Below, in pieces: positions 225-54,434 of a DNA stretch of 64,000 bases. A program made the position numbers and the translations under genes. Every line of letters starts with the position of its first letter. Position 1 is the stretch's first letter. The stretch comes from Auriscalpium vulgare (taxonomy: Eukaryota > Basidiomycota > Agaricomycetes > Russulales > Auriscalpiaceae): the NCBI GenBank assembly GCA_019915015.1, contig JAHBBC010000044.1, positions 124,001-188,000 of the forward strand, in the 5' to 3' direction. Under the pieces are notes generated by a model that did no database searches, was not told the origin of the DNA, and saw only the letters and a program-made list of their open reading frames with translations.

Positions 225-1062
225 TGATGGGACCCGCAGCGCTACAGGCACCGATACGGACCAATCACACCGCTACACCAAGACACACACCCCCGAGACG
301 CCCCACTGGCGTCGCGGCACCGGCACGACCACGGGACAGCACAACGCGAGCGAGCGTCTGGAGAGGAGACGGAGAGCCCGAGGTAGGGAGTCGGAACGGT
401 CGGGCGCGGAACTTGGTAGGACGCGTGGGAAGAGCTGACGAAGCAGCGGTATATAGACGCGATTCGACTTGTTGTAGACACACTTTTGGACCTTGGGCCT
501 ACACCCGAGACTACACCTTTCATTCCTGCTTCACAGAGAGCATCGCACGACGCGACACCGCCAGACCAGCCCGACACGATGCCTTAAACCAGGACGCCGT
601 AGCGACATCCGGGTCGCGCCACCTTTGCGATACCACGGGCTATGCTGCCCCGACTCAACCACAGACTGGAGTGATACAGTGTGGTAGGTTTTATGACTGA
701 CGTTTATGTTCTAGGATAGCGACTCGGACGGTACAAGCGCGGGGACACAGGTCGGACGGTCGGACGGCAAGGGCGACTCCGCAACTGGGACGGGCCGGCG
801 GCGACAGATGGGAGGGTCGCACCGAATAGTGTGAGAGGAGACGCAACGTGCGACGGTCGGACGGGAGCGGAGAGAGAGAGAGAGAGGGAGAGGGCCGCAG
901 GACGAGGGCAGGACCCGCGGGGTCCTGGGTGGTTTGTTCGGGGCACGGTCGCGATCTTGGGTTTCTTCCTCCGACCCACTACCTCTTGGGCCAGCGGTTG
1001 GCTGCTCGCTCCCTCCATTTCTATCGACGTTCCCGGGGCCTCCCCCAGGGTTCATCTCATCA
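225..1062 (+). repeat. Element A 5' LTR (838 bp)
   Basis: Starts TGATGGGACC and ends CTCATCA. It matches 13798-14651 base for base as far as I can read, except that the 3' LTR has 16 extra bases. It contains a TATA-like box at 450-455 and a GA-rich simple repeat around 867-893. Open frames inside it occur equally in both LTRs and are not taken as genes. Confidence 0.93.
450..455 (+). promoter_or_regulatory. TATA-like box in element A 5' LTR
   Basis: TATATA within GCGGTATATAGACG, about 225 bases into the LTR. The same site is at 14039-14044 in the 3' LTR. It is the most TATA-like site in the LTR and probably sets the genomic RNA start. Inferred from sequence only. Confidence 0.5.
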
Positions 1063-1066
1063 TTTG

Positions 1067-1084
1067 TGGAGCCCACCGCGAGGG
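1067..1084 (+). other. Primer binding site of element A
   Basis: TGGAGCCCACCGCGAGGG starts four bases after the LTR end. TGG pairs with a tRNA 3' CCA. The same 18 bases at the same offset follow the LTR of element D (52617-52634), which supports this as the primer site. I could not name the tRNA. Confidence 0.8.
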
Positions 1085-1111
1085 GGCTAGTGTCAACCGC
1101 TCAGCAACCCG

Positions 1112-4100
1112 ATGGCACCAAAGGCGAGGGTTATCGTAGAGCCCACTCGACGCGCACCGCCCCGATCGGCCCCGTCGGAGTACTCGACTAGTCAGCGGGC
1201 GGAGTCCATGCCAGGACACCTCGCATCGTCGGAAGGTGGGGCGTCGGACGAAGAGCGCGCGACTTCCAGCGCTGAAGGCGCCGAGGGCGACAACGAAAAC
1301 GACGACGGCGAGGCATCGGGTGTGTCGGACGCAGCACCCGAGAACAACGGGGATGCTGCGGGCGAGGCTCCCGGCGATCAAAACGCGGAGGCAGGCCCTG
1401 TCCAATCGGAAGAGTCGGAGCACGGTTTGGATGGTAGACGGTCCCTCCATCAGGAGCTCCTGGACGTCAATGAGGCGTCGATCGAGTTGCTGACTGGCGG
1501 AGCGATGCGACAATGGTCGTCGCCGGAGCTTACCCCGTCGGAATCGGAGCCCGAAGTGGCTGCGCTGATTGATGAGGACCGAGACGAGGCACAGGTGCCT
1601 CCCGACAGCGACCGCTTGGCTTCCGACCGCGGAAACGTCGGAACGCACGGAGGTTTATCAGGAGACGGGCGTGGAGCGGCCGCACAGGTTTCCCGACCAG
1701 TTTCTCCCACATCGCAATCCAGTACTCCGTTATCGCGTTTACCCCGTCGCATGACCATGGCCACTCCGATGCCTACCCGTGGCGACCGCCAAGCCCCTAA
1801 GTTCGACAATCTTAAGCCGCGCGAGCTGCAACGCTATTTCGCGGAATTGAGGCACTTGTTCACACGGGCGGGTATCGAGGACGGCCAGGACCAGGAGAAG
1901 AAGGAGCACGCCACGCGATACCTGGACGTCCTTACAGCAGACCAGTGGCAAAGCCGACCCCAGTACGCGGGCAATGCGACGTTCGAAGAGTTCGTGACCG
2001 CGATCATAGCGCTATACCCCGGAGCGGACGAGGAGCGCAAGTACACGATGGGCGACCTCGATCAGCTCGTCGCCGAGACAGCCCGCCGAGGCATCACGAC
2101 CATTGGCGACGTTGGGGAATACTATCGCGGTTTTTACGCGATCTCCCAGTTTCTTATAGGGCGGCAGCGTATCTCCGAGCGCGACCGCGACTACACTTTC
2201 TTGCGTGGATTTCAGAAGGGACTGCAAGATAGGATAGAGCAGCGGCTGCAGCTGAAGTATCCCGACCACGATCGCGACGGCCCGTACCCGATGGACCAAA
2301 TAGTGGAAGCGGCGCGGTACGTGCTGCACGGCACGTCGAGCACCCCGCGGTCGGCAGGGCTCAGCGTCCCCGCGGGTCTGGCCTACTTGTCCCAACCCGC
2401 GGCCGTCAAGGCGGAAGAACCTGCGATCAAGGTCGAGCAGTTTGCCGCTCTGATGGAGAAGGCGGCCGAGCAGATCGCGAAAGCGTATAGCGCGGGGAGA
2501 GCCGATGCGATGGGGATGAGTAATGCAGGCCCGCAGCCGTCGGCGTACACGCGCGGGCCACCGGGCCCGATGATGGCGTCGGCCGCTCGTTTTGATCGTC
2601 CTCGCCCGGCCCCGGGACAGGATGGCGCCAGGTGCTCGTTCTGCAACGGTCCCGAGCACTTCATCCGCGAATGCCTCGTCCTGCAAGACTACATAGCGAC
2701 GGGGCGGGTGGTACGCAACGAGATGAACCAGGTGGTACTCAAGAGCGGCAGGCCAGTGCCATTTGGGCTAGGCCCGATTCAAGCGAGGGTAGACGAATAT
2801 TATCGCACGGACCCGTCCGGGCTGCGCGCCGACGTCGCGGCCAGAGTCGCGGGCAACGCGACGGAAACAATGATGTTGGCATCGACAGGTCCCATCGCCG
2901 TCACCGACTACCCGCTCCGACCTGCGCGCGACCAGCCGGTCGCCGGGCTCATCCAGTTAATCCCGCCGTTGACGGACGACGAGCGACTCGAGGAGTTGCG
3001 TCAAGAGATGGCGGTGTTAACCCTCATGAAGGAGCAGAGGAACGCCGGCCGGGCCCGAAGGGAGGCAGCGATTCGCAACGGAGAGTTACCGCCACCAATC
3101 GGTCCGCTGCCCGGGGATAGAGTGCGATCCAAGAGGCTAGTCCCTGAGGTGGTGATATCTCCGTCGAAATTCACGGCAAAGCGGCCGAAGGTTACGTTCG
3201 CGGTGCCCGAAGATCCAGAGGATGCGGAAGAAGCGAGGGAAGAGAGCGAGGGCGAGCCGACAGTCGAGAAGGACCCCGAGGAGATAGAGCCGGAACCCAT
3301 CCATCCTTTCGCCTCCGTACCCGACGCAACCTACATACCCGTCGGGGACGCGTCCCGACCAGACAAAGGGAAGAAACCAGTCGCCGCCTATACCAAGGAC
3401 ACGCCCATCCATAGTGAGGAAGTCGCGAAGGAAGTCTACGGCCGCGCGATGGAGACTTCCGTCACTCTGACACAGAGCGAGTTACTGTCGCTGGCGCCAG
3501 AAGTACGTTCCCAGTTGCGATACGCTATCACCCCGCGGCGCATAGCGGCCCCGGTACTGTCCAGCGGGGACTCCCCAGTAGCGGTCCTACACACGGTCGT
3601 AGCGGAAGGGGAAGGGCCTACCAAGGAGTGGTCGGACCTACCAGGCGACTTGTACGAGGAAGAGCGCGAGCAGGAGAGAGATCAAGCGCGGGGATACACC
3701 TCGCACATGCCGTCGTCGTTCTTGCAGGCCATACAGAGCCAGCCAGCGGTGCCGCCTCGCGGGTCGCTGGTGCTCTCCGACCCGATGCTGACGTTGATGA
3801 GTGCCTCGGCCGAGAAACCGGCCCCGTTGGTGGTCGCAAAAGAGTCATCGGCATTGCGAGCGGTCCTGCCCTTGGTGGATAACCAAGCGCACATTGAGGC
3901 CATCCTGGATCCAGGGTCGCAGGTCATCTCCATGTCCGAAGACGTTTGTCATTTTCTCGGCCTGGCATATGATCCCGCGATCACACTGGACATGCTTTCC
4001 GCCAACGGCTCGATTGACAAATCCCTCGGGCTAGCCCGCAACGTAGCGCTAAAGCTGGGCGACATCATGCTCTACGTGCAGATACACGTCATACGTTCTC

Positions 4101-4294
4101 CGGCCTACAACATCCTGCTAGGGAGGCCCTTCGACGTCCTCACTGGGAGTATAGTCCGCAACTTTGTCGATGAGCGACAGACCATCACGATCACCGATCC
4201 CAACACTCAAGCGACGGCGACCGTCCCGACAGTAGAGCGAGGCTCGCGTCGCATCGTTCAGAGCGCCGGCGAGCGCAGGGATTTTCGGCTCTAG
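1112..4294 (+). CDS. gag: Element A gag-protease polyprotein (1060 aa)
   Basis: The ATG at 1112 opens an uninterrupted frame of 1060 codons. Residues 1-210 are acidic, low-complexity and probably disordered. A second plausible start (MTMATPMP) is at residue 214, where similarity to the gag of element D begins. The capsid-like part is about residues 215-420 and shares LYPGAD and AIS-FLI motifs with D. A CX2CX4HX4C zinc knuckle lies near residues 508-521 (CSFCNGPEHFIREC). A retropepsin-like site DPGSQ near residue 933 and ILLGRPF near 1010 mark an aspartic protease fused to gag. The product would form particles and process the polyprotein. It ends TAG at 4292-4294. Pol follows in the -1 frame. 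Confidence 0.9.
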   Translation: MAPKARVIVEPTRRAPPRSAPSEYSTSQRAESMPGHLASSEGGASDEERATSSAEGAEGDNENDDGEASGVSDAAPENNGDAAGEAPGDQNAEAGPVQSEESEHGLDGRRSLHQELLDVNEASIELLTGGAMRQWSSPELTPSESEPEVAALIDEDRDEAQVPPDSDRLASDRGNVGTHGGLSGDGRGAAAQVSRPVSPTSQSSTPLSRLPRRMTMATPMPTRGDRQAPKFDNLKPRELQRYFAELRHLFTRAGIEDGQDQEKKEHATRYLDVLTADQWQSRPQYAGNATFEEFVTAIIALYPGADEERKYTMGDLDQLVAETARRGITTIGDVGEYYRGFYAISQFLIGRQRISERDRDYTFLRGFQKGLQDRIEQRLQLKYPDHDRDGPYPMDQIVEAARYVLHGTSSTPRSAGLSVPAGLAYLSQPAAVKAEEPAIKVEQFAALMEKAAEQIAKAYSAGRADAMGMSNAGPQPSAYTRGPPGPMMASAARFDRPRPAPGQDGARCSFCNGPEHFIRECLVLQDYIATGRVVRNEMNQVVLKSGRPVPFGLGPIQARVDEYYRTDPSGLRADVAARVAGNATETMMLASTGPIAVTDYPLRPARDQPVAGLIQLIPPLTDDERLEELRQEMAVLTLMKEQRNAGRARREAAIRNGELPPPIGPLPGDRVRSKRLVPEVVISPSKFTAKRPKVTFAVPEDPEDAEEAREESEGEPTVEKDPEEIEPEPIHPFASVPDATYIPVGDASRPDKGKKPVAAYTKDTPIHSEEVAKEVYGRAMETSVTLTQSELLSLAPEVRSQLRYAITPRRIAAPVLSSGDSPVAVLHTVVAEGEGPTKEWSDLPGDLYEEEREQERDQARGYTSHMPSSFLQAIQSQPAVPPRGSLVLSDPMLTLMSASAEKPAPLVVAKESSALRAVLPLVDNQAHIEAILDPGSQVISMSEDVCHFLGLAYDPAITLDMLSANGSIDKSLGLARNVALKLGDIMLYVQIHVIRSPAYNILLGRPFDVLTGSIVRNFVDERQTITITDPNTQATATVPTVERGSRRIVQSAGERRDFRL

Positions 4295-4302
4295 AGGCGT
4301 CG

Positions 4303-7300
4303 TTGGACGACCAGGCGGAGGTGGCGCTCGTCCTCGAGTTCACGGGCGACGCCGCCGATCCTATTTCCGTGGAAGCCGTGGTCCCCTTCGACTCCTCTAG
4401 TTCGCCGGAAGAGTTACGAGCAACCTATTTATCATTTTGCGATCTCCCAGAATCTACCCCTCCAATATTTGATCGGCCGACCAACGCGACTTTAGACGTT
4501 CCATCGGCGCCCGTTTTCTTTCTCGCCCCAGCCGGGGTGCCCTCGTTCGCAGGCGAACAGGAATTTCGCGACTGTAAGTCGCTGCCAAGCAGCGCGCGGG
4601 CACGCGCAGTTTTCGCAGCGACCAAGAAAAAGTATAAGCCAGCCCACCTAAAAGTGAAGCCAGTACTAGCCGACTTGCCTGGGCAGTTCAGAATCATACG
4701 CGACATACGAGGCGACCCGCTAGCGACACTACCCAAGTTACCGACGAAGCCCCCCGACTTCCGGCCGACGGGGCGTTACACCGAGGAGCGCCGCGACCAA
4801 TTCGACGTAGTTCACGAGGGAGACTTCTTGTGGAAGGAGGAACGCAAGCTGATGCACCATTTTATGTGCGAGCACAACGGTGCGTTCGCGTGGGACGACA
4901 GCGAGCGAGGCCACTTCCGCGAAGATTTCTTTCCGCCGGTCACGATACCCGTCGTACCGCACACGCCATGGGTACAACGCAACATACCGATCCCGCCGGG
5001 TATCTACGACCAAGTCATGGAACAAATCAGTCGGAAGTTGGCCGCGAACGTCTACGAACCATCCAATTCGTCGTATAGGTCGCGGTGGTTCTGCGTGGTC
5101 AAAAAGGATGGAACGAGCCTGCGCATAGTGCACAGCCTGGAGCCGTTAAACGCCGTCACGATAGCTCATTCCGGTGTGCCCCCGTTTACCGACCAACTGG
5201 CCGAGCAATTCGCGGGTCTGGCTTGCGGCGCGATGCTGGATCTGTACGTCGGATACGACGAGCGAGCGTTGGACCCAGCGTCGCGCGACCTCACTACGTT
5301 CCAGACCCCTTACGGCGCGCTGCGGTTGGTAACACTACCGATGGGCTGGACGAATTCAGTGCCTATCTTCCACGACGACGTCACACATATCCTGAGGCCG
5401 GAAATTCCCCACGTCACGATACCGTTTATTGATGACGTACCGGTCAAGGGCCCCGCGAGCGAATACAAGGACGACCAGGGGAAGTACGAGACGATCGCTG
5501 ACAACAAGGGCATCCGCCGATTTGTCTGGGAACACTTTCAGAATCTCAACCGCGTCGTACAGCGCATGGGTTATTCGGGCGGGACATTTTCGGGTTGGAA
5601 GACTATTTTGTGCGCGCCCGAAATTGTCGTGGTCGGACACCGCTGCACGAGGGACGGGCGGATCCCCGACGAACAACGGGTGGCTAAGATTGTGAATTGG
5701 GGGCCATGTCAAGACCTGTCCGATGTACGGGCGTTCCTCGGGACGGTCGGGGTGCTGAGGATCTTCATCCACCATTTCGCACATCGCGCGCATGCGCTCA
5801 CGCACCTTACGAGGAAAGATGTGCCGTTCGAATTCGCAGCGGAACAATTAGCAGCTATGGAAGATCTCAAAAGCGCGTTGCTGGAGTCGCCAGCCCTGAA
5901 ACCGATCGACTATCAGTCGGGCGAACCGGTTATCCTCGCGGTCGATACGTCTCCTATTGCGGTCGGGTTCTTGCTGTGCCAGGCTGACACCGACGATCCG
6001 AAGAGTCGCAAGAAGCGTCGGTACGCACGGTTTGGGTCCATCGCGTTGAACGATCGCGAGGCGCGTTTTTCGCAACCAAAGTTAGAATTATACGGCCTGT
6101 TTCGGGCGCTCCGCGCGCTGAAGATATATCTCATCGGAGTGCGGAACATGGTCGTGGAAGTCGACGCACGCTACATTAAGGGCATGCTCGACAATCCCGA
6201 TATTGAACCCTCAGCCAGCATGAATCGGTGGATTATTGCCATTTTAATGTTCCATTTCGTCCTAGTTCACGTGCCCGGCCTGTTTCATGGGCCTGACGGG
6301 ATGTCGCGACGAAGGCGCCAACCGGGCGACGTGGCAGAGAATGAGCACGACGGGTTCGAGGATTGGGTCGACGCAATGTATGGCTTCATTCACCTCGTGA
6401 ACGCATACGTACCGCGCAGTACAAGGCCACGGTCGGGGGATCCGCGCGACCAACCAAGGGCCGCGATCGCAACGTTCGTCACCCAGGCAGCTCCGACAGA
6501 GTTGTCGTACGACGCCGTTGACCGCGACATCAAGGCGCAGCAGGCCGATGAGCGACTCGTTCGAGTGCGGGAATGGCACAACACGCTCCAACGGCCGGAG
6601 GGCCTAGCCGACCAAGAGTATGCGACGTTCCTAAGGTACTGCACTGAGTTCTTCCTCGACGGCACGAGTCTCTTTCGCAAGGAGCCGCAGGGGCGCCACC
6701 AGCTCGTCTTACCACCGGAACGCCGCATAGGGGCTTTAAAAGCGTGCCACGACGACGTCGGCCATCGCGGCGCGTACCCGACCAAGATGTTTCTCCTCGA
6801 ACGCTTCTGGTGGCCCTACATGGACCGCGACGTCGCGTGGTTTGTCCGATCGTGCCACATTTGTCAAGTGCGACAGGTGAAGCACGTGCTCATTCCCCCA
6901 ACGGTCGCGACCCCGGCGCCGCTGTTCGCCAAGATGTACGCTGATACCATGCACATGCCGGCTTCGCGAGGTTTCAAATACATCGTACAAGGCAGGTGCT
7001 CGGTCTCGCATTTCCCAGAGTGGCGCATGCTGCGTCAGGAAAATGCCAAGTCACTCGCGCGATGGATATTCGAGGACGTACTCTGTCGCTGGGGAGCGCT
7101 CCGGGAAATCGTAACGGATAACGGGACGCCGTACCTAGCAGCGATGAAGCACCTCGAGGAAGATTACGGCGTGCAGCACATCCACATCTCAGGCTATAAC
7201 TCGCGATCCAACGGAATCGTAGAGCGATCGCATTTCGACGTCCGACAGGCCCTGTACAAGGCCGCCGACGGTGACGCGAGCAAGTGGGCCACGGTCGCAC

Positions 7301-7962
7301 ACTCGGTATTCTGGGCGGACAGGATCACAACGCGCAGGCGTATGGGCTGCTCCCCCTACTTCGCGGCGACCGGCACGCAGGCATTGATGCCCCTCGATAT
7401 CGTAGAGGCGACGTATCTCCTACCACCGCCCGACTCAATACTGTCGACGACGGATTTAATCGCGCGACGGGCTGTCGCACTTTAGAAGCGCCGCACCCAG
7501 CTCCGTACGCTCCACTCGAAAGTGTTTGACAAGCGGCGGCATGATGCGCTGATTTTTGAGCGCGACCACGAAGCATCGATCAAGAACTACGGCTTCCAAC
7601 GAGGCGACCTTGTCCTGGTACGTTTCACGCAGTTCGAGAAATCACTCGACCGCAAGATGCTGCCTCGCTACGACGGTCCGTTCATCGTAATTGGGCGGCG
7701 ACGCGGTGGACCGTACGTCCTGTGTGATATGCACGGGGCGGTCTTCGACAGGCCCACTGCGGAGTTTCGCGTCATTCCGTACTTCGCACGACCACACATC
7801 ACGCTTCCTCCGCTACCGGAGTTCATCGACATACCCGCCCGACGACTAAACGAGCTTCTCGGGCAGCCTGGCTCCGACGCCCAAGCACAGGAATCACGCA
7901 GCATAGACAGCGACGCGTCGGACACAGCGAGTAACAGCGCGGAAGACGGTAGTGTCGCCTGA
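4303..7962 (+). CDS. pol: Element A pol: reverse transcriptase, RNase H, integrase (one in-frame TAG)
   Basis: The frame is -1 relative to gag and open from 4174, so it overlaps the gag end by about 120 bases. I saw no canonical slippery heptamer in the overlap, so how pol is expressed is unclear. Counting residues from 4303: RT around 200-400 with active site FIDD near 374 instead of the usual YxDD; RNase H with an AVDTSP start near 547; integrase HHCC finger near 815-855 (CHDDVGHRG ... CHICQ); catalytic core with D near 881, D near 938 (TDNGTPY) and E near 973 (GIVERSH). A TAG at 7483-7485 interrupts the frame, where a Gln codon is expected. The same frame continues to 7962 with a GPY/F module (RYDGPFIVI). 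No chromodomain is visible. Confidence 0.88.
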
Positions 7963-7992
7963 CCGGCCGTGCGCAACTGCTGAGGTCAGCAG

Positions 7993-8012
7993 TTTCAGTC
8001 GGGGGGAGGACG
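7993..8012 (+). other. Polypurine-like tract 1 of element A
   Basis: TTTCAGTCGGGGGGAGGACG, 31 bases after the pol stop. It is almost the same as the tract directly before the 3' LTR (13781-13797) and a third copy at 12117-12136. It may be the ancestral tract left in place when the antisense cassette was added, or a working internal plus-strand primer. Confidence 0.55.
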
Positions 8013-8233
8013 CGATACGACTGGACTAGGTATTACGTTAAGGAGATACACCACGGACAGTACACTGAGACTATTGGTTCAACTTATTTCTTTTCTCCTC
8101 TTGTGGTGGGGGGGGACACTAAAATTCTATTTGGGCAAGCATGCGTAGAGACGACAGCACGAAAAACAACAAGAAAAGTAACGCAAAAACAAGAGAATAC
8201 AAGAAACAGAGAAAAATGCGAGAAAGGGTCGAC

Positions 8234-10327
8234 CTACTCAGCGACGTCCATATACACGGTCTCAACGGTGTCGCCAACGTCGGACCCGTCCTCCGAGCTG
8301 CTCTCCTCGACGCCGACCACGCCTTCCTCGCCCTCCTCTTCGTCGTCGTCCGTCTCGTCGTCGACACCCGCTGGATCGGCAGGCGCGGCAAGGGGGATAC
8401 CGCCGGCCGAGGGAAGGTCCTCCGCGCTCTCCGCGCCATCCGACACGGCGGGCGTACGAGCAGCGCGCCGGCAACCATACGTGCGCAGCACGGGATGCAC
8501 GGGAGCCGGGGACGCGCGCGACTCTACGGAGGGGGCGCGAGCAGGCTCCAGCTCATCCTCCTCCTCATCGCTAACGATCGGGGCGGCGGGAGTAGAGGCG
8601 GCGACGGAGCTGGGCGGAATGGTGGCGATGGTGGGCGGGTCAGAGCGCCGGTGACCACTGGGCCCAGCGACCGGCGAACTACGGAGGGAGGGAGAGCGGG
8701 AGGCCTCGGAAGCCACAGCGTCGGCGGACACGCGCGAGCCGAACTGGTGCTCGAGCTGGGCAAGGCGCACGAGGAGCCGGTCGTGACGGTAGGGCCACAG
8801 GTTGAGCGTCGTCGCGCTAGCAGCCAGCTCCGCCCGGACGAGCGCAATGGAGTTGGCATGGTCGGAGAAGTTGTCGGCAGGAGGGAGGTCCTCAAAACGC
8901 CGCGCGTCCTCGTCCACCGACGCCAGCACGGACGCGAGGAGGTCGCGAGCCCGACGTGGGGAATCTGAAGGGAGGGAAGAACAGGTGAGTGTTAGGAGAA
9001 GGGTAAGAGGGGCGCAGCAACGTACCTGCAGAGTCGGCGGCCGCCAGTAAGTCCGCAAGGAACTTGGCGAAGAAGGGCGCCGCCACAGGCGCCGCAGCGC
9101 CGCGACGGGAGGCAGAACGCGGCCGGGGGGCACGAGAAGGAGCGCGGGAGCGGACCGACCGACCACGGGAACGGTGGGGGGAAGGGGCGCGAGGGCGCGA
9201 ACCGTCCAAGAGTACAGCGCCGCCGCAGCCCTTGCGCTGGGCGCGACAGCGGATGCACTTGGTGGGGCGGTGAGGCTTGAACTCACAACGCACCGGCCCG
9301 CGCACGAAACCAGCCTGGCAGCGGCCGCAGCGGGTAGAAGTCTGGAAGGGTGGACGGTCAGCAACAGCAGGGGAGATGGGGAGGGGGTAGTTCACCTTGA
9401 TGCGCTCACCAGCGTACCGCTCGGTGTGCGTCGGGCGGCGATCCGACCGGTGGAACAAGGGGTCGCCGTCACTGTCTACCGCCTCCGACAGCGAGTCGTC
9501 GAGACCACTACCCGGCGAAGTCGACGAACGGCTGCGACGGCGGCGAGGGGCGGGCCGACCCTTTTTGGCGGTGCGACCGCGCCGGGGTTGAGGCGACTCG
9601 GTCGCGTGGGGAGACGAGAGGGGTGTGGGGGAGTGCGAGGCGCGGCGCTTCCCGGCGGCTTGGGACGGACGCTGGACGGTCGCAGTGGCGGTACGCGCGG
9701 CGAGGCGCTCCCCGCGGGCAGAAGGCGGCGGCGGGACCGGCCCCGGGAGCGGCAACACCACCTCCGCGCGGTTCGCGAGCACGCGACGAGCCTGCGTAAA
9801 GAGCGGGCAGAAGGAAGGGGCGAGGTTAGCGGGTGACGGCAGGGACCGCCGATACACGCACCTTGGGGCGGAGCCGGGTAACGGGAGGGTCGGCCACGGC
9901 GACGGTGCCCTCACGCGTCCCGGCGCCGACGAGGGGCGACGGCGTGGCAACGGTCTGAGCGGACCGCGGCACGGTCGCCTGGGGCGCTTCAGGGGCCTCC
10001 GCAGCCTCGTCGTCTTCGTTCGCCTCGTCGAGGAACAGGGGCGGGGGTCGCACGGCTTCTTCAAGCGCGTCGTACCGCGCGCGCGCCTCGGGGGAGAACG
10101 TCACCCCACGACCACGGGCGTCGTAGTAGGCACGCTAGGAAATCGCAAGTCAGAGTGGAAGGCGAGATCAGGAGGAGCAGACGTACCAGAAGCTGGCGCG
10201 CTTGCGGGCGCAGCAGCGCGAGTTGGGCCTCGGAGGTGGCGTCACGCGCCATGGGCCCGAGTAAGCCCAGCTGGAGATCCAGCATGGCGCGGGTAGCGGT
10301 GGCGTCGGCGACGGTGGCAGCGTCCAT
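8234..10327 (-). CDS. A1: antisense four-exon gene for a Zn2Cys6-like protein (636 aa)
   Basis: On the minus strand: exon 1 10327-10187 (47 codons), exon 2 10134-9862, exon 3 9791-9026, exon 4 8964-8234. The introns (52, 70 and 61 bp) begin GTACGT, GTGCGT and GTACGT and end TAG, CAG and CAG, in phases 0, 0 and 1. The spliced frame is open from ATG to stop. At residues about 293-327 it has six cysteines spaced CX2CX10CX9CX2CX6C, close to the fungal Zn2Cys6 binuclear cluster but with longer loops. The flanks are rich in Arg, Ser and Pro (RRRRSRSSTS, PHRSRGRSVRS). The C-terminal third is acidic. It is encoded opposite to the retrotransposon. I know no function. DNA or nucleic-acid binding is inferred from the Cys cluster and basic flanks. 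Confidence 0.8.
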
Positions 10328-10816
10328 GGGGTGAGGAATCGGGGGAGCGGGAAGGCGAGCGAGCGAGGTGAGGGGAAGAGGGAAGAAGGGCGACGGCGAC
10401 TTCGCCGCAGGCGCACGAACAATGGTGCGTGCGTGGGAGCGACCGGCCGCGTGGCCCGGCCAGAGCGCTGGTTTTGCCTCCGAGCGCCCACGATGCCGGG
10501 TCGATCCGCGATCTGATCAGCGATTGTTGATTTGATCCCGCGACGTACACCGGGCCGCGGCGGGACGACGCGCGCGGCAAAGCCGCGTGGCGACCACGTG
10601 CCCCCGTCGCGAGCGAAAGCTCTCAAGTCGTTGGCGCCCGTCCCTCCCTCGACGCGCGGCCCCTGCACACTGACGTCGCCTAACCAGGCAATGGGTCGCA
10701 GATCTAATAGTCCTATTGGGAGGCATTCAACGACGTACATGCAGATGCAAAATGACTACACTAACGCGGGCGCTTTCTTTCCCTCTACTCCTCGACGCCC
10801 CGACAACGCGACAAAG
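10328..10816. other. Spacer between antisense genes A1 and A2
   Basis: No reading frame I trust. The part next to A1 (10330-10390) is purine-rich on the plus strand and would be the A1 leader and promoter region on the minus strand. I saw no clear TATA box. The rest is GC-rich and featureless to me. Confidence 0.4.
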
Positions 10817-12000
10817 CTATGGTATGGCAGGGTCGTCGCGTGGGATGCGCCCCTGCTGGCTGACACGACCCCGATTCGCGCCTCCACCTCGGCGACCGCG
10901 GTGAACGTTCTGCCACCCCATCGGGACAGCGCGAAACGTCACGATCTCATCCAGAAACATAGTCGGGTTGCTGTGGATGTCGGCCAACAATTGAGTGGGG
11001 AGGTTCGACGCGAGGATCGCGCTTTCTATCGCAGTCCGGGCATGGATGCTGTCGATCGTGGTAGCCCACTGCAACGAGTCGCGAAGAAACGCCGCCGCGG
11101 CGGCCTCCAGCGACCCATCCGCCGAATCAAAAGCGTCAACGTAGGGACCCCAGCGACCGCGCGCACTCCGATCGTCGGGTCGCGCGACTCGAGCGATGGT
11201 AGCATAGACCGATTCCACGGTCGCCACCGTCTCGGTAGTGTGGGTGATAAGAGTGTCGGAGAGGGGATGCGCGAGGGTGCGCAGGAGGTCGGGAAGGGAT
11301 ACGCCAGTGGTCGAGTAGGCCAGGCGATGGACCTCGGACAAGAGGGCCTCCTCCCCGCCATTCAGGCGCTGGAGCGCGGACGCGCAAGCCTCCATCGTGG
11401 AAATAAACTCCGCGTGCACGGTCGCGTCAATGCCCGCGCCGCGACCAGTAGGATGAGCGGCCAGGCAGAGCTCGCCGAGGCTGCGGCGGTACTGGGGAAC
11501 GGACGTGCGACCCGATTCGAACGCGGCCCACAGGGCACCCTCGCAAAGGCGGGCGAGCTGCCGAGCATGATCGCGATTGTTGGGAAAGGTGAAGCCAGCA
11601 ATTGGGCGAACTGCGAACGTCGGATCGAGTGGAGCGGACGTCGGGGGCGCGATGTCGCTGATGAGAATACCACCCCACTCGGCGAAGGCAATACGCGACT
11701 CGGGGGACACGGTGAACAACGTCTCGAAGATCGGGCCCGCAATTGCCTGCACCAGGCGGAGGACGGACGGCTTCGCGCGGTATTGAAAACTTCGCCCTGG
11801 AACAACCCGACACCAGGATGAGCGGCGGTCGCGATAACAATGCGACGACGTACGTAGAGGGCGGCTACCTTGCGACCCCACTCTTCACGATCCGCGACCA
11901 GGGTCTCTACGGGGGCGGTCTCCAAGTCAATGGCAGGGGGCGCGAGGAGTAAGCCGACAAGGGCGAGTGCGCGCGATTCAAGGGCAAAGGTCGACGACAT
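10817..12000 (-). CDS. A2: antisense two-exon gene, unknown protein (366 aa), paralogous to A3
   Basis: Exon 1 runs 12000-11854 (49 codons, starts MSSTFALESRALAL) and ends at donor GTACGT. Exon 2 begins most consistently at 11770 after an AAG acceptor (intron 83 bp, phase 0) and runs to the stop at 10817. A closer CAG acceptor would break the frame, so the acceptor is uncertain. Exon 1 has exactly the same length and phase as exon 1 of A3. The start of exon 2 aligns with A3 (pattern PI-E, PE, F-W-G, P, L-P). The protein is mostly helical-looking, with no membrane segment, signal peptide or catalytic motif that I recognise. It lies inside element A opposite to gag-pol. Function unknown. Confidence 0.65.
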
Positions 12001-12420
12001 GTCAGACAATGGGTCGCAGGCACCAACAGCCCGCGTTTTGTACGCCGTCGGGCACTTGTCGCGACCCGATGCACCGCGGTTTGACCGGGGAATGCGCGTC
12101 TGGGGACAGGCGCAGATTTCAGTTGGGGGGAGGATGGCCAGTCGCGAGCGACGAGGAGAAAGATAGGGATTTCCTCGGCGACGGGTGACCAGCCCGCGCA
12201 GGGCACACAAGGAACAAGTGGCCAGAAGTGAGCGGGACAAGACAAAGTCGGAACCGACCACGCGCGACCGAATCCGCGACCCATCAGAATACTGTCGGAG
12301 ACCTCGCGACGCTACGAGTTGCCTACGCAGCGGAACACGACGATCATTGCTATGAGACATTGGGGCCACAGTCCTGTGCGATTCACGGTGGCCGAAGAGA
12401 CCATTTACAGAAGGGGTACA
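12001..12420. other. Spacer between A2 and A3, containing polypurine-like tract 2
   Basis: Probable promoter region of A2 on the minus strand. Apart from the tract at 12117-12136 I see no element or coding frame here. Confidence 0.4.
12117..12136 (+). other. Polypurine-like tract 2 of element A
   Basis: TTTCAGTTGGGGGGAGGATG, matching the tract before the 3' LTR in its last 16 bases. It lies 117 bases upstream of the A2 start codon. The terminal tract lies about 130 bases upstream of the A3 start, so the tract and an antisense gene seem to have been duplicated together. Confidence 0.6.
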
Positions 12421-13649
12421 CTACTCGCGACTGCTCGCGATGTCGCTATCACTATCGCTGCGATAATCCACTATCGCCCCGACATCGCCGACCACCACAC
12501 GTTCCATCACAGCGGCATTACCTCCGACACCCCCGATGTCCACGGGATCGCCCTGCATCTGCTCGTCGGAGTCGAAACCGCCGGCATCGTCGTCAACCGA
12601 GCCGACACCATCACCGTCGGGCAAGGCGGGGAGACCCGACAATACACGATGGCGCACGAAGGTTACCAAGAGGTTGTTCGTGTAAAGGTCGGGTTCGGTC
12701 GGGGCGGCTGGGAAATGGCGCAGAACGTATGCCGCAGTCACTGCGTTCTCCAGGAAGAGTCGGGTTGCGTGCTCGAGGGAGAGGCAGGGGTCACGAACGA
12801 TGGCTAACAGGTAGGGAGCGTCGGCCCAGAGGGCTTGCAGATTGGCGACGTTCTCCGTAGCCCCAGCGAGCTCCTCGACGGTCTCGCGGTACACGGCCTC
12901 GAAACGAGCTAAAAGGCGCGCACCCAGTCCGCCGAGGTTGCGACCGTACTGAGTGGGGGGCGAAATGGGCCAAGCGGTCGACTCGCGGGCGACGTAGTTG
13001 GGAAGGAAAGCGGTCCCACCACGCGAGTGGCGAATGGAGAGCGCGGAACATTCCAAGGCCTCTCGGAGGACGTACGCAACCCACGTCTGGTTGCCCAGGG
13101 GACGGTCATTGGGGATGGCGGCATGGAAAATGGCAAGCTCGCGCAAGTACGACGCAACCGAGCACCCGCGTTTGCGAAACACGACCCAAAAGTTCTCCTC
13201 AACCAGCGTCGCGGTCAGCCGGACCTTGGGGGCGTCAAGTAGGTCGACCCGATCAACAACGGAGGTCCACGGGTGCAGCTCGGTCGTAGGGAGCGGGGCG
13301 GGACGAAGAAAGCGCCCCGCCCACGAGCGGAAGCGATCCTCGACCTCGGGTACGAGGAGGATGGCGTTCTCGAGTATCGGCATGAGGATGCGCTCGGCGA
13401 GGGGGATGATCAGCCTGGGGTCGGAATCGGTGATGGATTCCTACAGCCGATGGGAGCGGACGGTTAGCGCGACAACGGGGCGGGAAAAGAGGGGAACCGT
13501 ACGATGACAGCCAACACCTCCTGTGCCCAACGCTCGCGCGACTCGATCGCTTCGGCGGCTGCTGCGAGTGGGAAGTCCGCGCTGGGGGCCCGACCCAGGT
13601 GGTACAGCAAAAGAGTACCACGACGGTACGTGTGGGGAGACCAGGTCAT
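12421..13649 (-). CDS. A3: antisense two-exon gene, unknown protein (388 aa), paralogous to A2
   Basis: Exon 1 runs 13649-13503 (49 codons, starts MTWSPHTYRRGTLLL). Intron 13502-13441 is 62 bp (GTACGG...CTGTAG, phase 0). Exon 2 runs 13440-12421 and begins ESITDSDPRLIIPL. Splicing joins the frames exactly. The body is helical-looking. The last 80 residues are rich in Asp, Gly and Val (GVGSVDDDAGGFDSDEQ) and probably disordered. No membrane segment or enzyme motif seen. Same layout as A2: short first exon, same intron position and phase, tract just upstream. It is the antisense gene nearest the 3' LTR, so an LTR antisense promoter could drive it. Function unknown. Confidence 0.72.
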
Positions 13650-13780
13650 GGTGGTGTGTGGGGGGTTTGGTTGGGTCGGACGGGTGGTGCGACGCTACCT
13701 GACGACTCATCGAGACGGCGCGAGTGAGCCTTTATCAGGAGGAGCCATCCGGGGATTTGCCGACTGAGGGCAGTCGGTAG

Positions 13781-13797
13781 CTCAGTTGGGGGGAGGA
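13781..13797 (+). other. Polypurine tract of element A
   Basis: CTCAGTTGGGGGGAGGA directly abuts the 3' LTR start at 13798, the standard place for plus-strand priming. Confidence 0.8.
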
Positions 13798-14651
13798 TGA
13801 TGGGACCCGCAGCGCTACAGGCACCGATACGGACCAATCACACCGCTACACCAAGACACACACCCCCGAGACGCCCCACTGGCGTCGCGGCACCGGCACG
13901 ACCACGGGACAGCACAACGCGAGCGAGCGTCTGGAGAGGAGACGGAGAGCCCGAGGTAGGGAGTCGGAACGGTCGGGCGCGGAACTTGGTAGGACGCGTA
14001 GGAGCGCAGACGCGTGGGAAGAGCTGACGAAGCAGCGGTATATAGACGCGATTCGACTTGTTGTAGACACACTTTTGGACCTTGGGCCTACACCCGAGAC
14101 TACACCTTTCATTCCTGCTTCACAGAGAGCATCGCACGACGCGACACCGCCAGACCAGCCCGACACGATGCCTTAAACCAGGACGCCGTAGCGACATCCG
14201 GGTCGCGCCACCTTTGCGATACCACGGGCTATGCTGCCCCGACTCAACCACAGACTGGAGTGATACAGTGTGGTAGGTTTTATGACTGACGTTTATGTTC
14301 TAGGATAGCGACTCGGACGGTACAAGCGCGGGGACACAGGTCGGACGGTCGGACGGCAAGGGCGACTCCGCAACTGGGACGGGCCGGCGGCGACAGATGG
14401 GAGGGTCGCACCGAATAGTGTGAGAGGAGACGCAACGTGCGACGGTCGGACGGGAGCGGAGAGAGAGAGAGAGAGGGAGAGGGCCGCAGGACGAGGGCAG
14501 GACCCGCGGGGTCCTGGGTGGTTTGTTCGGGGCACGGTCGCGATCTTGGGTTTCTTCCTCCGACCCACTACCTCTTGGGCCAGCGGTTGGCTGCTCGCTC
14601 CCTCCATTTCTATCGACGTTCCCGGGGCCTCCCCCAGGGTTCATCTCATCA
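13798..14651 (+). repeat. Element A 3' LTR (854 bp)
   Basis: Same as the 5' LTR apart from 16 additional bases around 13998-14013, where ACGCGT appears twice around a 10-base spacer. Ends CTCATCA and is followed by the GCGG target duplication. Confidence 0.93.
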
Positions 14652-14655
14652 GCGG
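14652..14655. repeat. Target-site duplication of element A, right copy (GCGG)
   Basis: Matches 221-224. It lies inside the Plavaka coding sequence. Confidence 0.88.
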
Positions 14656-17184
14656 CGCACGAGCCACTTGGTCATCTGCGGATAGACGTCCTTGTGGTTT
14701 GTCGATCGGTAAGCGTCCTTCGCGTAGTCGATATGGAGTCGTTCGGTGGCCTCGGTGTTGGTATTGTCCGTTGTTCTAATAAGCTTGATGGAGTCGACAT
14801 AGTGCGCGAGTGCGTGGAGCTTGGGGAGGTTGAAGCCTTCTCGTATGCCGAGAGCCTCGAAGATATGTTTGCTGGCATGGAAGCGCTTCAGAGCCTTCTC
14901 GAGGTACTTTAGAGTAGCGTCGCTGTGCGATGGATATTGCGCGAGATAGAGGAAATCGAGGAGAGCGCGGGCCGTGCGGATGACGTCGGTGACGGGCGTT
15001 CGGGCGGGAAGATCCAGGTCGATGATAAGGCCGAGTAGAATGCGACAGATATCCTTATGTTCTTGCCCGGATACGCGCGACAAGATAGAGATTCCGTTCT
15101 TGAAGAGGCGGACATTGTGATTGGGAGGGAGTCGTGCACAGCGCGCATCAATCTCGGCAGCTCCAAAGGCATCAGTAAGCCAGCCCAGGAGGTGTTTCAC
15201 CATGCCCTGATAGAGTTGATGGAGGACGTCGGGCGTGATCGCAACAAAGACATTGGAGTAGGGAAGATCTGCCCAGAACGGATGATACACCGGTTTGATC
15301 CCAGCTTCTTGGCAGGCCGCGATGTATGCCTCTGGCCCGCGGTCAATAACGGATAGCGCCTCGCGCGCTGCAGCTATGCTCCGAGGGGATGGCAGAGAGG
15401 GTGTATGGTCCCCTAGCGCATCAGGATAAACGACGCACTTGGGGCACTCGCCGGACTTGACGCATGCGACGAGCACCTGTTCAGGGTAATCTCCGATGAA
15501 AACGGCAAAGATCGGATGACAGCGCCGAACGACGCCGTCTCCGCTCGCCATTTCAACGCCGTGCAGACCAGGTGAGATGGTGGGCGACACGATCTTTCGA
15601 ACGCACGCATGGAAGAGGTTGGCAACAGCGCGGCGGCGCGTGTCCTGATTTTTGATGCTCGTCAGACGGGCGGTCGGAAGGTAGCCAATCAAGATCTGAG
15701 CCTGCTTTGACGGCTTCCTGCGATTCTCCTTCGAGATGTTGCCTATGGTAAGGTACAACGGGTACGCGGAGTTGTTCCGAAAGTTGGTGACGAGGGTCTT
15801 GTCAGAGGACAAGATAAGGGGGACAACGGTTGCGCCTGGCGTCTTGTCTTCGAGCAAGGTCTGTGCGCGGAGCATGAGCTACACGTTGCTGTCAATTGCT
15901 GTGCCACGCACCTGTATGTGCCACCACCACTTCCCAGTATTCATTTGGCCGTACACGCGAGTCCTCGGCCGCGCAGCCTCATCCGCGGGCTCAGCAGCGT
16001 CGTCGGCATAGTGACATTCGGGGGTGAAGGCCATGGTCTGTAGGAACTCGGAGTTGCTATAGAGGTGGCGGACGCATTGCATGATGTCGCGGTAGAACAG
16101 CTCGTATGTCTCGCCGTCGACAGTGATCTCGTCGCACTTGAACGCGGGGATGCTAGGCATGCTTGAATCGATGATGGCATTCAGCGCCTTCAAGGAATTG
16201 AATGACAGGTTGAGTCGCTCGCGAACCTAGAGCGGGAATGTAAGCGCTGCTCTGCATGCACGTGGGGCGCTCAGTAAAACGTACTTCGTCGATCTGAAGG
16301 AGCTCCGTGAAGGCTGTGGACGTGGGGCCTCGCATCTTCGCCCAGCGCGCGATCTCCCACTCCAGTTTGGAGTGGAATGGTGCCCAGACGTTCGCTGCGG
16401 GATTGTCGCCGGCGTCGAGGGTGTCGCGGTATGCCTCGAACGTTGAGCGCGTGTCAACCTGTGGGATAGTCTCGCCTGCTCGGCCTCCAAAGTGAACCAC
16501 CGTGGACGGCTCATGGAGGGCCTCCTCGTCGTCTCGCCGCTGCTCGTCCTCCATGCGACGGGCCTCTTCTTCGCCGACTGCAGGAAACTCGTAGGCGTCG
16601 TCCATTGGAGCGTCTGGGCGCAACTGGTCCGCGCGCGGCCGATCCTCATGCATGGCAGCAATGTCGTGCTCTTCACCGCCAGGGCCGCCTTCTTCGTCGT
16701 CGCTATCGTCCTCTTCTTGCTCGTTTGCGCCCTGGGAGGCTGTGGCGTCGACACCCTGCTCGTCTTCATCGCCCCAGACAAGCTCCTCGGGATCAAGGTC
16801 GGCTCTCCACGCGTCGATGGGTAGGTCACAATCTGAGGGGCCGTCAGCAAGGAAATAAAGGTCATGAAAGAATGGCCGCGTACCTGAAGCCCCATCGTCC
16901 CACTCACTATTGGATATGGTGGCGTCAGTCTTGAACCACGCGGGCGGTTCGTCTTGGGGAATGGGGAGCCGATTGTGCGACCGGAGGAGAGCGGACGGGA
17001 GCGACGCCGATCCGCCTGCGTCGTTGGCGTCCGAGAGGCGCTGCGTGCGGTACTCGACACATCGTGGAGTTGACGTGCGGCGCAAGTGTTTGGTGAGGGC
17101 TGATGGCTGAAACCACTGGCCACATCCGTGGCACAGCTCATGGCCAGCGTGGCGTTGTGAAGATGGGCCAGCGCGACTTGACAT
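14652..17184 (-). pseudogene. Plavaka-type transposase, N-terminal and central part (split by element A)
   Basis: Minus strand. The start chosen is ATG at 17184 (MSSRAGPSS), just before a zinc-finger-like segment CHGCGQWFQPSALTKHL typical of this family's N-terminus. The frame is open further upstream but that part looks non-coding. Likely introns lie near 16840-16890 (GTACGC...CCTCAG), 16205-16290 and 15876-15910. The acidic middle is followed by the conserved core: ASGDGVVRRCHP, GDYPEQVLV, CPKCVV, ITPDVLHQLYQGMVKHLL and TEATERLHIDYAKDAY. The protein would cut and move a CACTA-like transposon. The frame stops at the element A junction and resumes at 224-1. I could not find the transposon's own terminal repeats. 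Confidence 0.82.
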
Positions 17185-19143: not shown

Positions 19144-19651
19144 CTTGGGGTTAATGGGCCAATGCACGCATGGCAGTACAATTACTCTTAATCATTTAGG
19201 GGGGAGGGGGGCTTGGCCATCCAACATACAACCCATCCAACATACAACTGACTGCCTGGTATGGTTATGTTGTTTTGAATATGTTGCAGATATAATACTT
19301 GGGGTTAATGGCTCTGGCTCTGCTTGCAGGAAAGTGACTCTATGATGTATTGGAATGTCAGGACAAAGTTGTGGTGTTGGGCACCCACATGTAGTAGGGT
19401 GGTAATGTCACATGTGTCCGAAACCAGATCCCTACTAGAGCACCAAAGAGGATATTGTAATGTGTGTGAGCAAGTGTCAGGATCCCAAAGACGAACAGAG
19501 TGTTTCATATGTGCGTGGGGTGTGTGATTGGAGGTGATGATCGGAATGTGCAAGCGTTTGGAAAATTATCAACGGGAGTCCAGACGTAAGAACACATGAT
19601 GCAAGTAACTGTGAGTGATCAGACACTGTGTGTATGACCATTAAAGATGAA

Positions 19652-20430
19652 GAGACCAGTGAGGGGCAGTGCAAGCACATGGGGAATGGTCTGTACTGTC
19701 AAGAAGTGTGGGAGAGGTGTCCTACAGTGTGGGACAAGACAATATGAATATAATTGAACACAATGGAGACGCAGCGAACAATAGAATGCGCTCCGATATG
19801 GGATAGGTTGTAAGCAAGTGCTGCGATGTTGGAACACTGCAATTGTTCAGAGGAATGTACTGGAATGGTGTGTGCAACGGTCAGAGCAGTGGAGCAATAA
19901 TTGGAGCACTGGCGCAATCACAGAACAATCTAGATCAGAGAAATGTGGTGTAAGCTCAAGAGCTAAGCTGGACAATGGATGGAGGATAATGGCGCAAACT
20001 ATAGAGGTACCCGGCAGTCACAGAGTTATTGGAGCGGTGTGGCGAACATGTTCTAACAACAATCTCGACAATAAAAATGTCATATGAAATCCCGCCAAGT
20101 TGTGACAGCTGTGAGAGGATGCTATGCTCGAGGTCATGTGGATGCGGTTGAAACAATGTGCGAGTGGTCGGATGACTGTGTGTGGGGTGTGCAACTGAGT
20201 TGATGGTCTGAGTGTGGTGTCCAAGGTATGATTCCGATCGCCCAAATGCCCTGCGAGACTCCAACGGTCAGAACTCTGGCTTCAATCTTGCAAGAATTCA
20301 GAGAGACTATATCGGGTGGTTGGAGCTCATGTGTGCGACTCTCCAACCTCCAGAATTGCATGACTGTTAACTTGTCAAAAGTGCGAAAATTGGTGAAGAA
20401 TTGCATCGGAGCGCGGAGTGAGGCTTATCA
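19652..20430 (-). repeat. Old element-D-type LTR carried inside H1
   Basis: On the minus strand it begins TGATAAGCCTCACTCCGCG and follows the order of the element D LTR (cf. 47116 onward and 51568-51700), diverged but continuous, up to the CATGTGCTTGCACTG segment. The same block is at 63072-63850 (H3) and, more diverged, at 50791-51405 (H2), so it travels with the element. Confidence 0.65.
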
Positions 20431-20979
20431 TTGGTCACATGCTGGAGACCGCCGTGCGGCGGAAACACTCAAAGACAAGAATCAGGCGACGCAGATAGGA
20501 ACCAAGTCGGGATTGCTAGGAAGCAGAGGAGGTGTGGGTACAGGAGAGGCAGTTGTAGATGAGGAGAGAGAGAGCAGAGCGAACACAACGCGACTGTGAC
20601 GTGGCAGCGGGGCGGCGATTGCCGGGGCGCGCTGGTGCGTAAGTACGGGGACGAGAATATATACTATGTACGAGTCCGATGAGAGAGAAAAGAGAAAGGA
20701 AAAATGTATGTAGTAAGCTGTAGGCTTACACATGCCCGCGCTTGGTAGACCTGGGTCTACACACAGGTGGTAAATACGCACCAGAGATACATCACAAGTC
20801 CTTCAGACTCCAGCACCATGACCATTGTGTGTGCATTGGTTGTAGCTTTCCGACAATATATAATATGTGTGCATTGTATCAGGGAAAAGGCAAGAATCTG
20901 ATAGAAAGAGCAAAATGTTTTGTAAGGCACAAGGAGGTAGAAGGTTGATACAAGCTATACACAACTATTATAGATATGC

Positions 20980-21065
20980 AGCCTTGTAGTCTAGTGGTTG
21001 ACGCTCTTAGCCTATATTATGTAAGTTATGAACCATGTGCTGTGGGTTCAATTCCCACTGTGTGT
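20980..21065 (+). repeat. tRNA-like segment (SINE-like) in H1
   Basis: Contains an A-box-like TAGTCTAGTGGTTG and a perfect T-arm, GTGGG TTCAATT CCCAC. The acceptor strands do not pair, so it is not a working tRNA gene. Same segment inverted at 62437-62522; a diverged relative is at 50080-50155. Confidence 0.5.
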
Positions 21066-21497
21066 GGATTTTTAGTAATGAAACAGTTGGGCCCGGGTAT
21101 TGTAGTAGCCGGAGTAGAGAAAAATGACATAGTAAACCGGATCAATTGGCGGTTTGCCCTCGAAAACTACGTCATCTTTCTCTGCACCATGCGTGGGAAC
21201 TTTTTACCAAAAACGGAAACTGTAGGGCCTCCTATTCTCATCACAGAACAATTCGAATCATATGCATATCTGTGCTATTTAGCTTGCAAAACACAAAATA
21301 CTCACAGACACGAGTGTCTTTTGAGATGCAAAGGTGTGAAAAAGCATTGGGCAGAAGCTACTTAGGTAAGAATTACTCAATTAGGCAGGTGGGACGACGC
21401 GACTTGACCGTGGGATATAATTTCCTTTGGTAACGATCCAAACACACATTTTTTGGCCTGACTGGTTAGAGAAAAGAACGATTAAGAGTAATCGTAA

Positions 21498-22619
21498 TGG
21501 GCGACCAGACTGAGCAGGTCCAGGCGGTTCTGAAGCGCACATGTGCTAAGGAGGTGCCAAGGATCATGTGTTTCCGCAACACCTACCCATCGGACGGCGC
21601 GCGCACCTTCTACCTCATCGACGGTCTCAAAAATGCGGCGCGGGCGCTCGGCTATAGCGACATCTTGGCGAGGCTCGAGCAGGAGCCGGCATATCACGAG
21701 CTCCTCATCAAAATCGTACGTGCACTCGTTTGGGTCGCCTGCACTGTAACTGATTGGTGACGGAGCGACCACCAGCCAGAGGCCCGTATATCCATTTTCC
21801 GCGGGGATGTCAAGCGCAGCGCCGACGATACCGTGAAGCGCGCGTACCACCTCAACCGCATCCCGGACTCCGTGTACGTCAAGAGCATGAAGCGCGTGCT
21901 GACCGAAGGATTGAACGGCCGGCTGTACGTCTTCCCCGCCGACATATCTGTAAGCACAGATCCGCTACTCCATTGCGTCCCTCTTCAATTAACTTGCCTA
22001 CGCTATGTATGTCTAGAAGATGACATTCGACACAAGCAGTCCATTCTGCCACAAAGCGATCACTGACATCCTACACGACAAATTCTTCGGCGCGCGCGCG
22101 GTGCACCGGTTCCCTACCGCCGATTACAAGGCGGTATCCCCGAAAGGCGACACTCCAGTCATCCCGCCGGTTATGCTGGCGCTCGTCGCTACCATAGTAT
22201 ACCTCTTTAACTACCCTGACATTTTGCCACGGTCCTGACCGCCTGATTTCACAGATTGATGCTGGTCTTGTTTCACACTCGCTGTCACCAGGCCCTGCCA
22301 CCAAGGTCGACTTCCATGCCGACAAGTTCAAGGTCGTGTACGAAGAACACATCCACCGCCTTCGGAGGCTCAAAAAAAGGAGCGAGAACGGTTTCTGGGG
22401 CCTGCTGGGGCTCCTGTACTCGAAAGCGTCGTGAGCATTACGACTCTGTGGTGTGGCTCCGAGTCTCGCCCCTCTGACTGCACCTGATATCTTAGGAAGG
22501 GGTCTGTCGACCCAGACTCCCTTGAGCCACCGCTTGAAAGCGACGGGGACGACAACGATGATGACGACGATGACGACGTCGTTGACAATGACGGTTTCGC
22601 AGCAAATTTCGCGCGGTGA
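21498..22619 (+). pseudogene. DUF6532-type gene, 3' exons with the DUF6532 domain
   Basis: Continues the gene after H1. Exons run roughly 21498-21718, 21770-21949, 22020-22190, 22257-22433 and 22494-22619, separated by 50-70 bp introns. Recognisable parts: IMCFRNTYPSDGARTFYL, RAYHLNRIPDSVYVKSM, KAITDILHDKFFG, IPPVMLALVATIVY and KFKVVYEEHIHRL. The spacing fits the DUF6532 domain, an all-helical domain of unknown function abundant in Agaricomycetes. The C-terminus is an Asp-rich tail ending NDGFAANFAR. No frameshift is visible in this half, so H1 insertion may be the only lesion. Confidence 0.7.
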
Positions 22620-34639: not shown

Positions 34640-34701
34640 CTGTAGCAAGGCATCAGGTAAGTGTTCTGTATTGCATAGACTCGGAAGGAATGAATACACG
34701 T

Positions 34702-54422: not shown

Positions 54423-54434
54423 TCTCCGCAGCAC

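Follow-up and report, generated by a model that had tools for sequence, protein, structure and literature searches.

A Ty3/gypsy-type retrotransposon family of Auriscalpium vulgare with three intron-bearing genes in antisense orientation between pol and the 3' long terminal repeat

How can genes with introns persist within an element that multiplies by reverse transcription, and do such genes belong to the element that carries them? These questions are raised by a 64,000-nucleotide stretch of the genome of Auriscalpium vulgare (Russulales, Agaricomycetes; contig JAHBBC010000044.1), referred to here in its whole length as the window. It contains a retrotransposon, element A, for which three genes, A1, A2 and A3, had been predicted between pol and the 3' long terminal repeat (LTR), all in antisense orientation and all with introns; our analysis places all three there (Table 1). 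A sense-strand intron would be removed in the course of a retrotransposon's copying cycle. We consider it likely that a gypsy-type lineage of an agaricomycete fungus took up and kept a set of intron-bearing antisense accessory genes. This cassette would have been acquired between pol and the 3' LTR, on the strand opposite to gag-pol, before the families termed here alpha/delta, beta and gamma separated. Because the splice signals lie opposite to the full-length sense RNA, the introns would survive every round of reverse transcription, and from the integrated copy antisense transcription, splicing and translation would yield A1–A3. The anatomy of element A and its cassette is close to certain, while the functions of the three proteins we infer.

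The original prediction joined four frames of A1 into 636 codons through introns of 52, 70 and 61 nt in phases 0, 0 and 1. These introns stand, although a fourth, in-frame intron had been overlooked. Its 54 nt begin with GTGAAC and finish with CCAG in the window, the Auriscalpium homologue P0004 lacks the 18 residues that it would encode, and a GT-AG intron is found at the same position in beta and delta copies; A1 is therefore best modelled as five exons encoding 618 amino acids, with phases 0,0,0,1. A2 and A3 each have a single intron and are paralogues, an A2 query matching the A3 locus of beta with an E value of 1e-9. A2 of the window carries a 2-nt insertion close to the start of exon 2 which puts it out of frame in the model shared by other copies; a reading of this copy through an alternative donor (376 amino acids) was dropped once the copies revealed the shared model of 374 amino acids.

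Copies of the cassette were sought in the assembly (51.6 Mb, 96 contigs). A 30-mer taken from A1 has exact matches at 20 places, the window included, and the 19 other places hold the cassette whole or in part with 93–99% identity in aligned blocks (most of A1 and A2 is missing from L018). The genes thus recur in further copies, and their frames are kept, two points on which the original prediction could have failed: A1 is open in 19 of the 20 copies, A2 in 17 and A3 in 15. Of the five copies in which A3 was not open, two reflect slice limits, the slice of L011 stopping within exon 1 and A3 of L026 lying beyond the fetched stretch; in the genome-wide A3 search exon 2 of L011 was open and A3 of L026 was split over two frames. 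Intron lengths vary by single bases among copies (70 or 71 nt for A1 intron 2; 62 or 61 nt for the A3 intron), changes that would disrupt an uninterrupted frame. A2 exon 1 of L010 measures 148 nt in one alignment against 147 in the gene model, which we took as a border gap. In L011 exon 2 of A1 is longer by 222 nt and the frame is still open, with 711 codons including the stop.

L010 and eight further copies are 99.83–99.99% identical over 9.5 kb and therefore transposed recently. Comparison with the window showed that A1, A2, A3 and LTR types are differently combined among subfamilies: L010 has 98.6% identity in A1, 81.3% in A2, 97.0% in A3 and 96.7% in the LTR; L015 has 98.5, 99.2, 98.9 and 89.2% respectively; and L030, the delta copy, has 67.3, 81.3, 97.2 and 97.1%. 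Such mixing of modules would be expected from template switching.

The exon–intron structure is retained well beyond these close copies. A1 of delta has four GT-AG introns and a frame open across 650 amino acids; exon lengths of the window and L030 differ by 0, 21, 18, 15 and 114 nt, all multiples of three, and intron lengths by 10, 10, 3 and 1 nt, with 43–49% divergence in introns and 26–38% in exons. Beta (L028) and gamma (L029), of which one copy each was examined, have a pol that is 81% and 68% identical, respectively, to that of alpha along the best stretches. A1 of beta (617 amino acids) is 36% identical, and the phases of its four introns, 0,0,0,1, are those of alpha. Exon 2 identity to alpha is 28% in beta and 18% in gamma for A2, and 32% and 19% for A3, and the single intron follows codon 49 in A2 and A3 of alpha, A2 and A3 of beta and A2 of gamma, and codon 50 in A3 of gamma; it is in phase 0 in all six. 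The A2 and A3 introns of beta are stop-free and a multiple of three in length, so that there they are supported by homology and not by frame. By eye, CTAAC or CTGAC is present in 12 of the 18 modelled introns of alpha, beta, gamma and delta, and annotated relatives in Auriscalpium vulgare are compatible with the same exon joins. Introns at fixed positions in proteins that have diverged to approximately 18–36% identity indicate that the antisense arrangement is older than the separation of the families and that the genes are in use.

The original prediction had named dN/dS (the ratio of nonsynonymous to synonymous substitution rates, dN and dS) as a check. Frames were compared between copies. 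A2 of L010 and L015 differ at 209 sites, distributed 38/21/150 over the three codon positions, and the antisense frame has a dS of 0.90, a dN of 0.069 and a dN/dS of 0.076. Two shifted control frames gave ratios of 2.3 and 4.5 with 6 and 15 stop columns, and three reverse control frames gave 2.0, 0.2 and 5.3 with 2, 11 and 20. Values for A3 were 0.19–0.24 in three pairs, and A1 of alpha against delta gave 0.33 (dS 0.99, dN 0.33); among close copies the A1 ratio reached 0.82. Open frames could arise by chance where G+C content is high, and long frames are indeed present on several strands here; the probability of that explanation is negligible given the conserved introns, the copies, the selection and the stop columns found in every A2 control frame (2 to 20). 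The earlier judgement that the A1 joins are improbable by chance is likewise upheld by introns that keep their places, by exon lengths that preserve the frame and by the bias among codon positions. It could also be supposed that the antisense RNA itself matters, pairing with genomic RNA and feeding silencing that limits copy number, with the frames incidental. Retroelement antisense transcripts may work in this way (discussed in PMC7264820), but the codon bias and dN/dS of A2, the frame-preserving exons and the fixed introns all point to translation, and we regard this possibility as highly improbable.

The distribution of the cassette was examined behind 149 pol relatives, identified by the integrase C-terminal region (149 of 151 rows were used; one second fragment was left out and one row was not in the identity ranking). 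A cassette match lies downstream on the opposite strand in 34 of 39 pols with 85–100% identity, 9 of 10 at 66% and 45 of 63 at 64–67%. Two rows of the 64–67% band are misplaced, C35:145335 being a fragment of 97% identity and C40:197588 standing at 72%; each has a cassette match. By contrast, there was none behind the 35 pols at 47–52% identity or behind two fragments (0/35 and 0/2). A same-strand A1 or A3 match occurred for 5 of the 149. In the reverse comparison, after removal of second fragments belonging to the same gene, 45 of 48 A1 matches (from 53) and 86 of 107 A3 matches (from 120) follow a related pol in opposite orientation. L031, from the 47–52% band, is compact and has no cassette; its 3' LTR, 99.9% identical to the upstream copy, starts approximately 250 bp after pol. 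In L032, the second fetched member of this band, no cassette match above noise was found. L031 has a minus-strand open reading frame (ORF) that could have been taken for such a gene in the compact group; this reading was rejected, as the ORF overlaps the 3' LTR and extends beyond the element.

These counts bear on the two origins that had been offered for the genes, captured host genes or an old part of the element, of which the second is retained and recent capture is not, the matches forming repeat families. If a piece of host chromosome had recently been captured with its introns in reverse orientation, A1–A3 would be passengers; the introns do look ordinarily fungal, and LTR elements are known to capture host sequence (PMC7264820). 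However, the cassette spans families that are just 18–32% identical in A2 and A3, its matches lie predominantly behind related pols on the opposite strand as counted above, it is under purifying selection, and no host-like single locus was evident among the matches, although a six-frame search misses very diverged exons. We therefore consider recent capture very unlikely. Judged from the copies, the conservation of introns, the dN/dS of A2, the diverged families and the absence of matches in the compact group, the cassette appears to be old and selected.

An older event may have created it. Another mobile element or a virus could have entered a compact ancestor of the gypsy lineage, antisense to its genes, bringing A1 and the ancestor of A2 and A3. 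The short distance between pol and 3' LTR in L031 accords with such a fusion, as do the paralogy of A2 and A3, by which the cassette expanded through duplication, and the units of hairpin and polypurine tract interspersed in the cassette; no likeness to a known mobile-element or virus protein was found in Pfam, protein or A3 fold searches, and we hold the fusion to be rather unlikely as matters stand. It is a question of origin and is compatible with an antisense gene set that has been kept by the lineage.

In the interspersed units the 15-nt polypurine tract that adjoins the 3' LTR is repeated, once downstream of pol and once in the spacer separating A2 from A3, with the same arrangement in delta; shuffled elements contained 0.06 matches each (for those with a GGGG core). 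Beta and gamma also have internal tract copies, some of them mismatched. Before 10 of 12 tract matches, on the 5' side, lies a short hairpin whose loop has four bases. The arm analysis was confined to these 10, leaving out 8715 in L030, which repeats the alpha LTR copy, and 5346–5360 in L028, which has two mismatches and no such hairpin by eye; in six distinct pairs of arms, complementarity holds for 17 of 18 outer pairs, a score that 59 of 20000 shuffles attained. Folding z-scores of four examples range from -1.3 to -3.0, and compact L031 has a hairpin 5' of its own tract with different stem bases. Across the genome one form of the motif has 134 matches against 0 for the reversed control. We would guess that the internal tracts could act as extra start sites for the plus strand.

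What the proteins might do was approached through their composition. A1 contains the motif C-x2-C-x9/10-C-x9-C-x2-C-x6-C, its six cysteines common to alpha and beta and flanked on either side by basic stretches, with a spacing that we take to resemble Gal4; A1 matches no Pfam family at an E value of 0.1, the Zn(II)2Cys6 (Gal4-type) profile included. Its last 100 residues are acidic (26 D+E versus 5 K+R in alpha; 18 versus 2 in beta). The exon 2 models of A2 and A3 are mostly helical and of low confidence (mean predicted local distance difference test, pLDDT, 57.8 and 60.9 respectively), and the sole Pfam match of A2, PF20624, is under the cut-off (E = 0.054). With no Pfam family above its cut-off for A1–A3 and no fold match for A3, homology yields no function. 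From its conserved cysteines, six within a basic stretch, and its acidic tail, A1 may be a nuclear nucleic-acid-binding regulator, with A2 and A3 as helical partners that aid or regulate the cycle; we advance this tentatively and put it a little short of an even chance.

It is also possible, if on balance unlikely, that A1–A3 are structural accessory proteins, of the particle or for nuclear entry, and not regulators of transcription. Two of the three are helical paralogues, and in the beta copy compared they have diverged faster than pol (29–44% identity versus 81% for pol and 65% for its C-terminal part), but the composition of A1 fits a nuclear nucleic-acid-binding protein and A3 has no structural match. 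A further and more doubtful elaboration of the regulatory proposal would have A1–A3 form an antisense set like that of a complex retrovirus, with A1 regulating its own LTR, A2 and A3 as its partners, and the hairpin and tract units providing extra plus-strand starts that speed the copying of 14 kb and allow modules to be swapped between families.

Several observations weigh against the conclusion that the lineage has kept a functional gene set. One reverse control frame of A2 also has a low ratio (0.20), yet with 11 stop columns. A1 ratios among close copies are not uniformly low, at 0.10, 0.82 (window versus L010) and 0.48 (window versus L015), on few changes. None of A1, A2 and A3 has a Pfam family above the cut-off, and a fold search, made with the A3 model only, gave nothing at an E value of 0.001 or less. 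At the place of A1, gamma L029 (6805–7321) has no more than a short ORF, which lacks the cysteine motif. In the window copy pol is interrupted and A2 is out of frame. Counts of the cassette behind pol are lower bounds only, since 119 of 218 candidates were scored when the genome was searched with A3 (59 of 59 with A1). Finally, protein searches with the cassette proteins, each scoring approximately 8000 candidates, returned relatives solely from Auriscalpium vulgare.

One of the closest known arrangements is fungal and comes from Botrytis, an ascomycete. In the plant elements Grande (gene23), RIRE2, Retand (TRP28) and PvRetro13, the aORF-3R elements, and in the fungal LTR element Boty of Botrytis cinerea and Sclerotinia, antisense ORFs that follow pol and precede the 3' LTR have been described (PMC7264820); the original statement that no fungal element of this design had been described was thus too strong. 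In most copies of element A, too, coding sequence in antisense orientation occupies the space from pol to the 3' LTR, and in this it agrees with the aORF-3R arrangement. Unlike the plant elements as described, it comprises three genes with six introns at conserved positions; the word 'intron' occurs 0 times in the main texts of PMC11963269 and PMC7264820, and the description of Boty in the latter mentions neither introns nor several genes. Some plant antisense products are nuclear or predicted to bind DNA (PMC7264820; PMC11963269), among the described proteins being TRP28 of Retand (PMC11963269), and A1–A3 have no Pfam match above the cut-off to tie them to TRP28 or SMC-like proteins. In retroviruses, which also bear LTRs, HBZ of human T-cell leukaemia virus type 1 (HTLV-1) and APH-2/3/4 are products of spliced antisense transcripts that act on transcription of their own virus (PMC10186651). 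Each is a single gene with expression driven from the 3' LTR, in an unrelated host and lineage; no bZIP domain was matched in A1–A3 with Pfam. An antisense homing endonuclease gene in a nuclear group I intron keeps a spliceosomal intron whose removal was shown in vivo, differing in that it is not a retroelement and has one gene with one 47-nt intron (PMC9548176). The accessory role proposed for A1–A3 would be comparable in logic to that of HBZ or GENE23. Among the matches listed from open-licence literature (titles and abstract beginnings), there was no report of multi-intron antisense genes in a fungal LTR element, and the conserved three-gene, six-intron set seems to be a new form of the known antisense-ORF arrangement.

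The role of antisense ORFs in LTR elements has long been open, and a search for antisense and spliced transcripts has been called for (PMC7264820). The cassette offers a good setting for such tests, with near-identical recent copies and three defined proteins; the compact related group without a cassette match is a natural control, and the introns make stranded RNA evidence unambiguous.

Element A extends over 14.4 kb (225–14651) and can be assigned from its domains to the Ty3/gypsy type of LTR retrotransposon. The matching LTRs and target-site duplication first noted for it are confirmed: alignment of the LTR pair gave 16 gap columns and, over 838 aligned positions, not one substitution, and GCGG is present on both sides. 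Pfam gave the domain order protease, RNase H (E = 8.6e-11) and integrase zinc domain (E = 2.9e-16), and the reverse transcriptase (RT) match of pol is weak (E = 0.022, under the Pfam cut-off). A polypurine tract directly abuts the 3' LTR, and a TGG-initial stretch just 3' of the 5' LTR was matched to no tRNA.

Table 1. Positions of the features of element A and its antisense cassette in the window.
Feature	Position	Strand	Details
Target-site duplication GCGG	221-224 (left), 14652-14655 (right)		read from sequence
5' LTR	225-1062	+	838 bp, TG...CA
gag ORF	1091-4294	+	aspartyl protease towards end (PF13650, E 2.3e-5)
pol ORF	4174-7485	+	RNase H, integrase, weak RT match; in-frame stop ends ORF in window copy
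Remainder of pol frame	7486-7962	+	integrase C-terminal region
Hairpin and internal polypurine tract	7975-8010	+	tract 7996-8010, 1 mismatch
Gene A1, 5 exons	10327-10187, 10134-9862, 9791-9396, 9341-9026, 8964-8234	-	618 amino acids
A1 intron 1	10135-10186	-	52 nt, phase 0
A1 intron 2	9792-9861	-	70 nt, phase 0
A1 intron 3	9342-9395	-	54 nt, phase 0, in frame
A1 intron 4	8965-9025	-	61 nt, phase 1
Gene A2	10817-12000 (exon 1 12000-11854, exon 2 11796-10817)	-	374 amino acids in 17/20 copies
A2 intron	11797-11853	-	57 nt, phase 0, after codon 49
Hairpin and second internal polypurine tract	12095-12134	+	tract 12120-12134, exact
Gene A3	12421-13649 (exons 13649-13503, 13440-12421)	-	388 amino acids, A2 paralogue
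A3 intron	13441-13502	-	62 nt, phase 0, after codon 49
Hairpin and polypurine tract abutting 3' LTR	13757-13797	+	tract 13783-13797
3' LTR	13798-14651	+	854 bp, TG...CA

The pol stop of the window (7483–7485) is absent from 21 of 22 other loci, L027 being unreadable, and programmed readthrough was dropped for this reason. The window copy is partly decayed, though its LTRs are free of substitutions. A Plavaka transposase frame (PF18759, E = 4.6e-84) adjoins the 3' LTR at 14652–15878, and element A was therefore probably inserted into such a gene.

Elsewhere in the window, a 10,325-bp unit forms a perfect tandem pair (25470–46119), a candidate for either a real duplication or an assembly artefact; the idea that it is ribosomal DNA was unsupported because Rfam gave 0 matches in 25000–36500. 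An inverted pair, 19502–21498 and 62004–64000, is 99.95% identical, with related pieces at 47116–55977.

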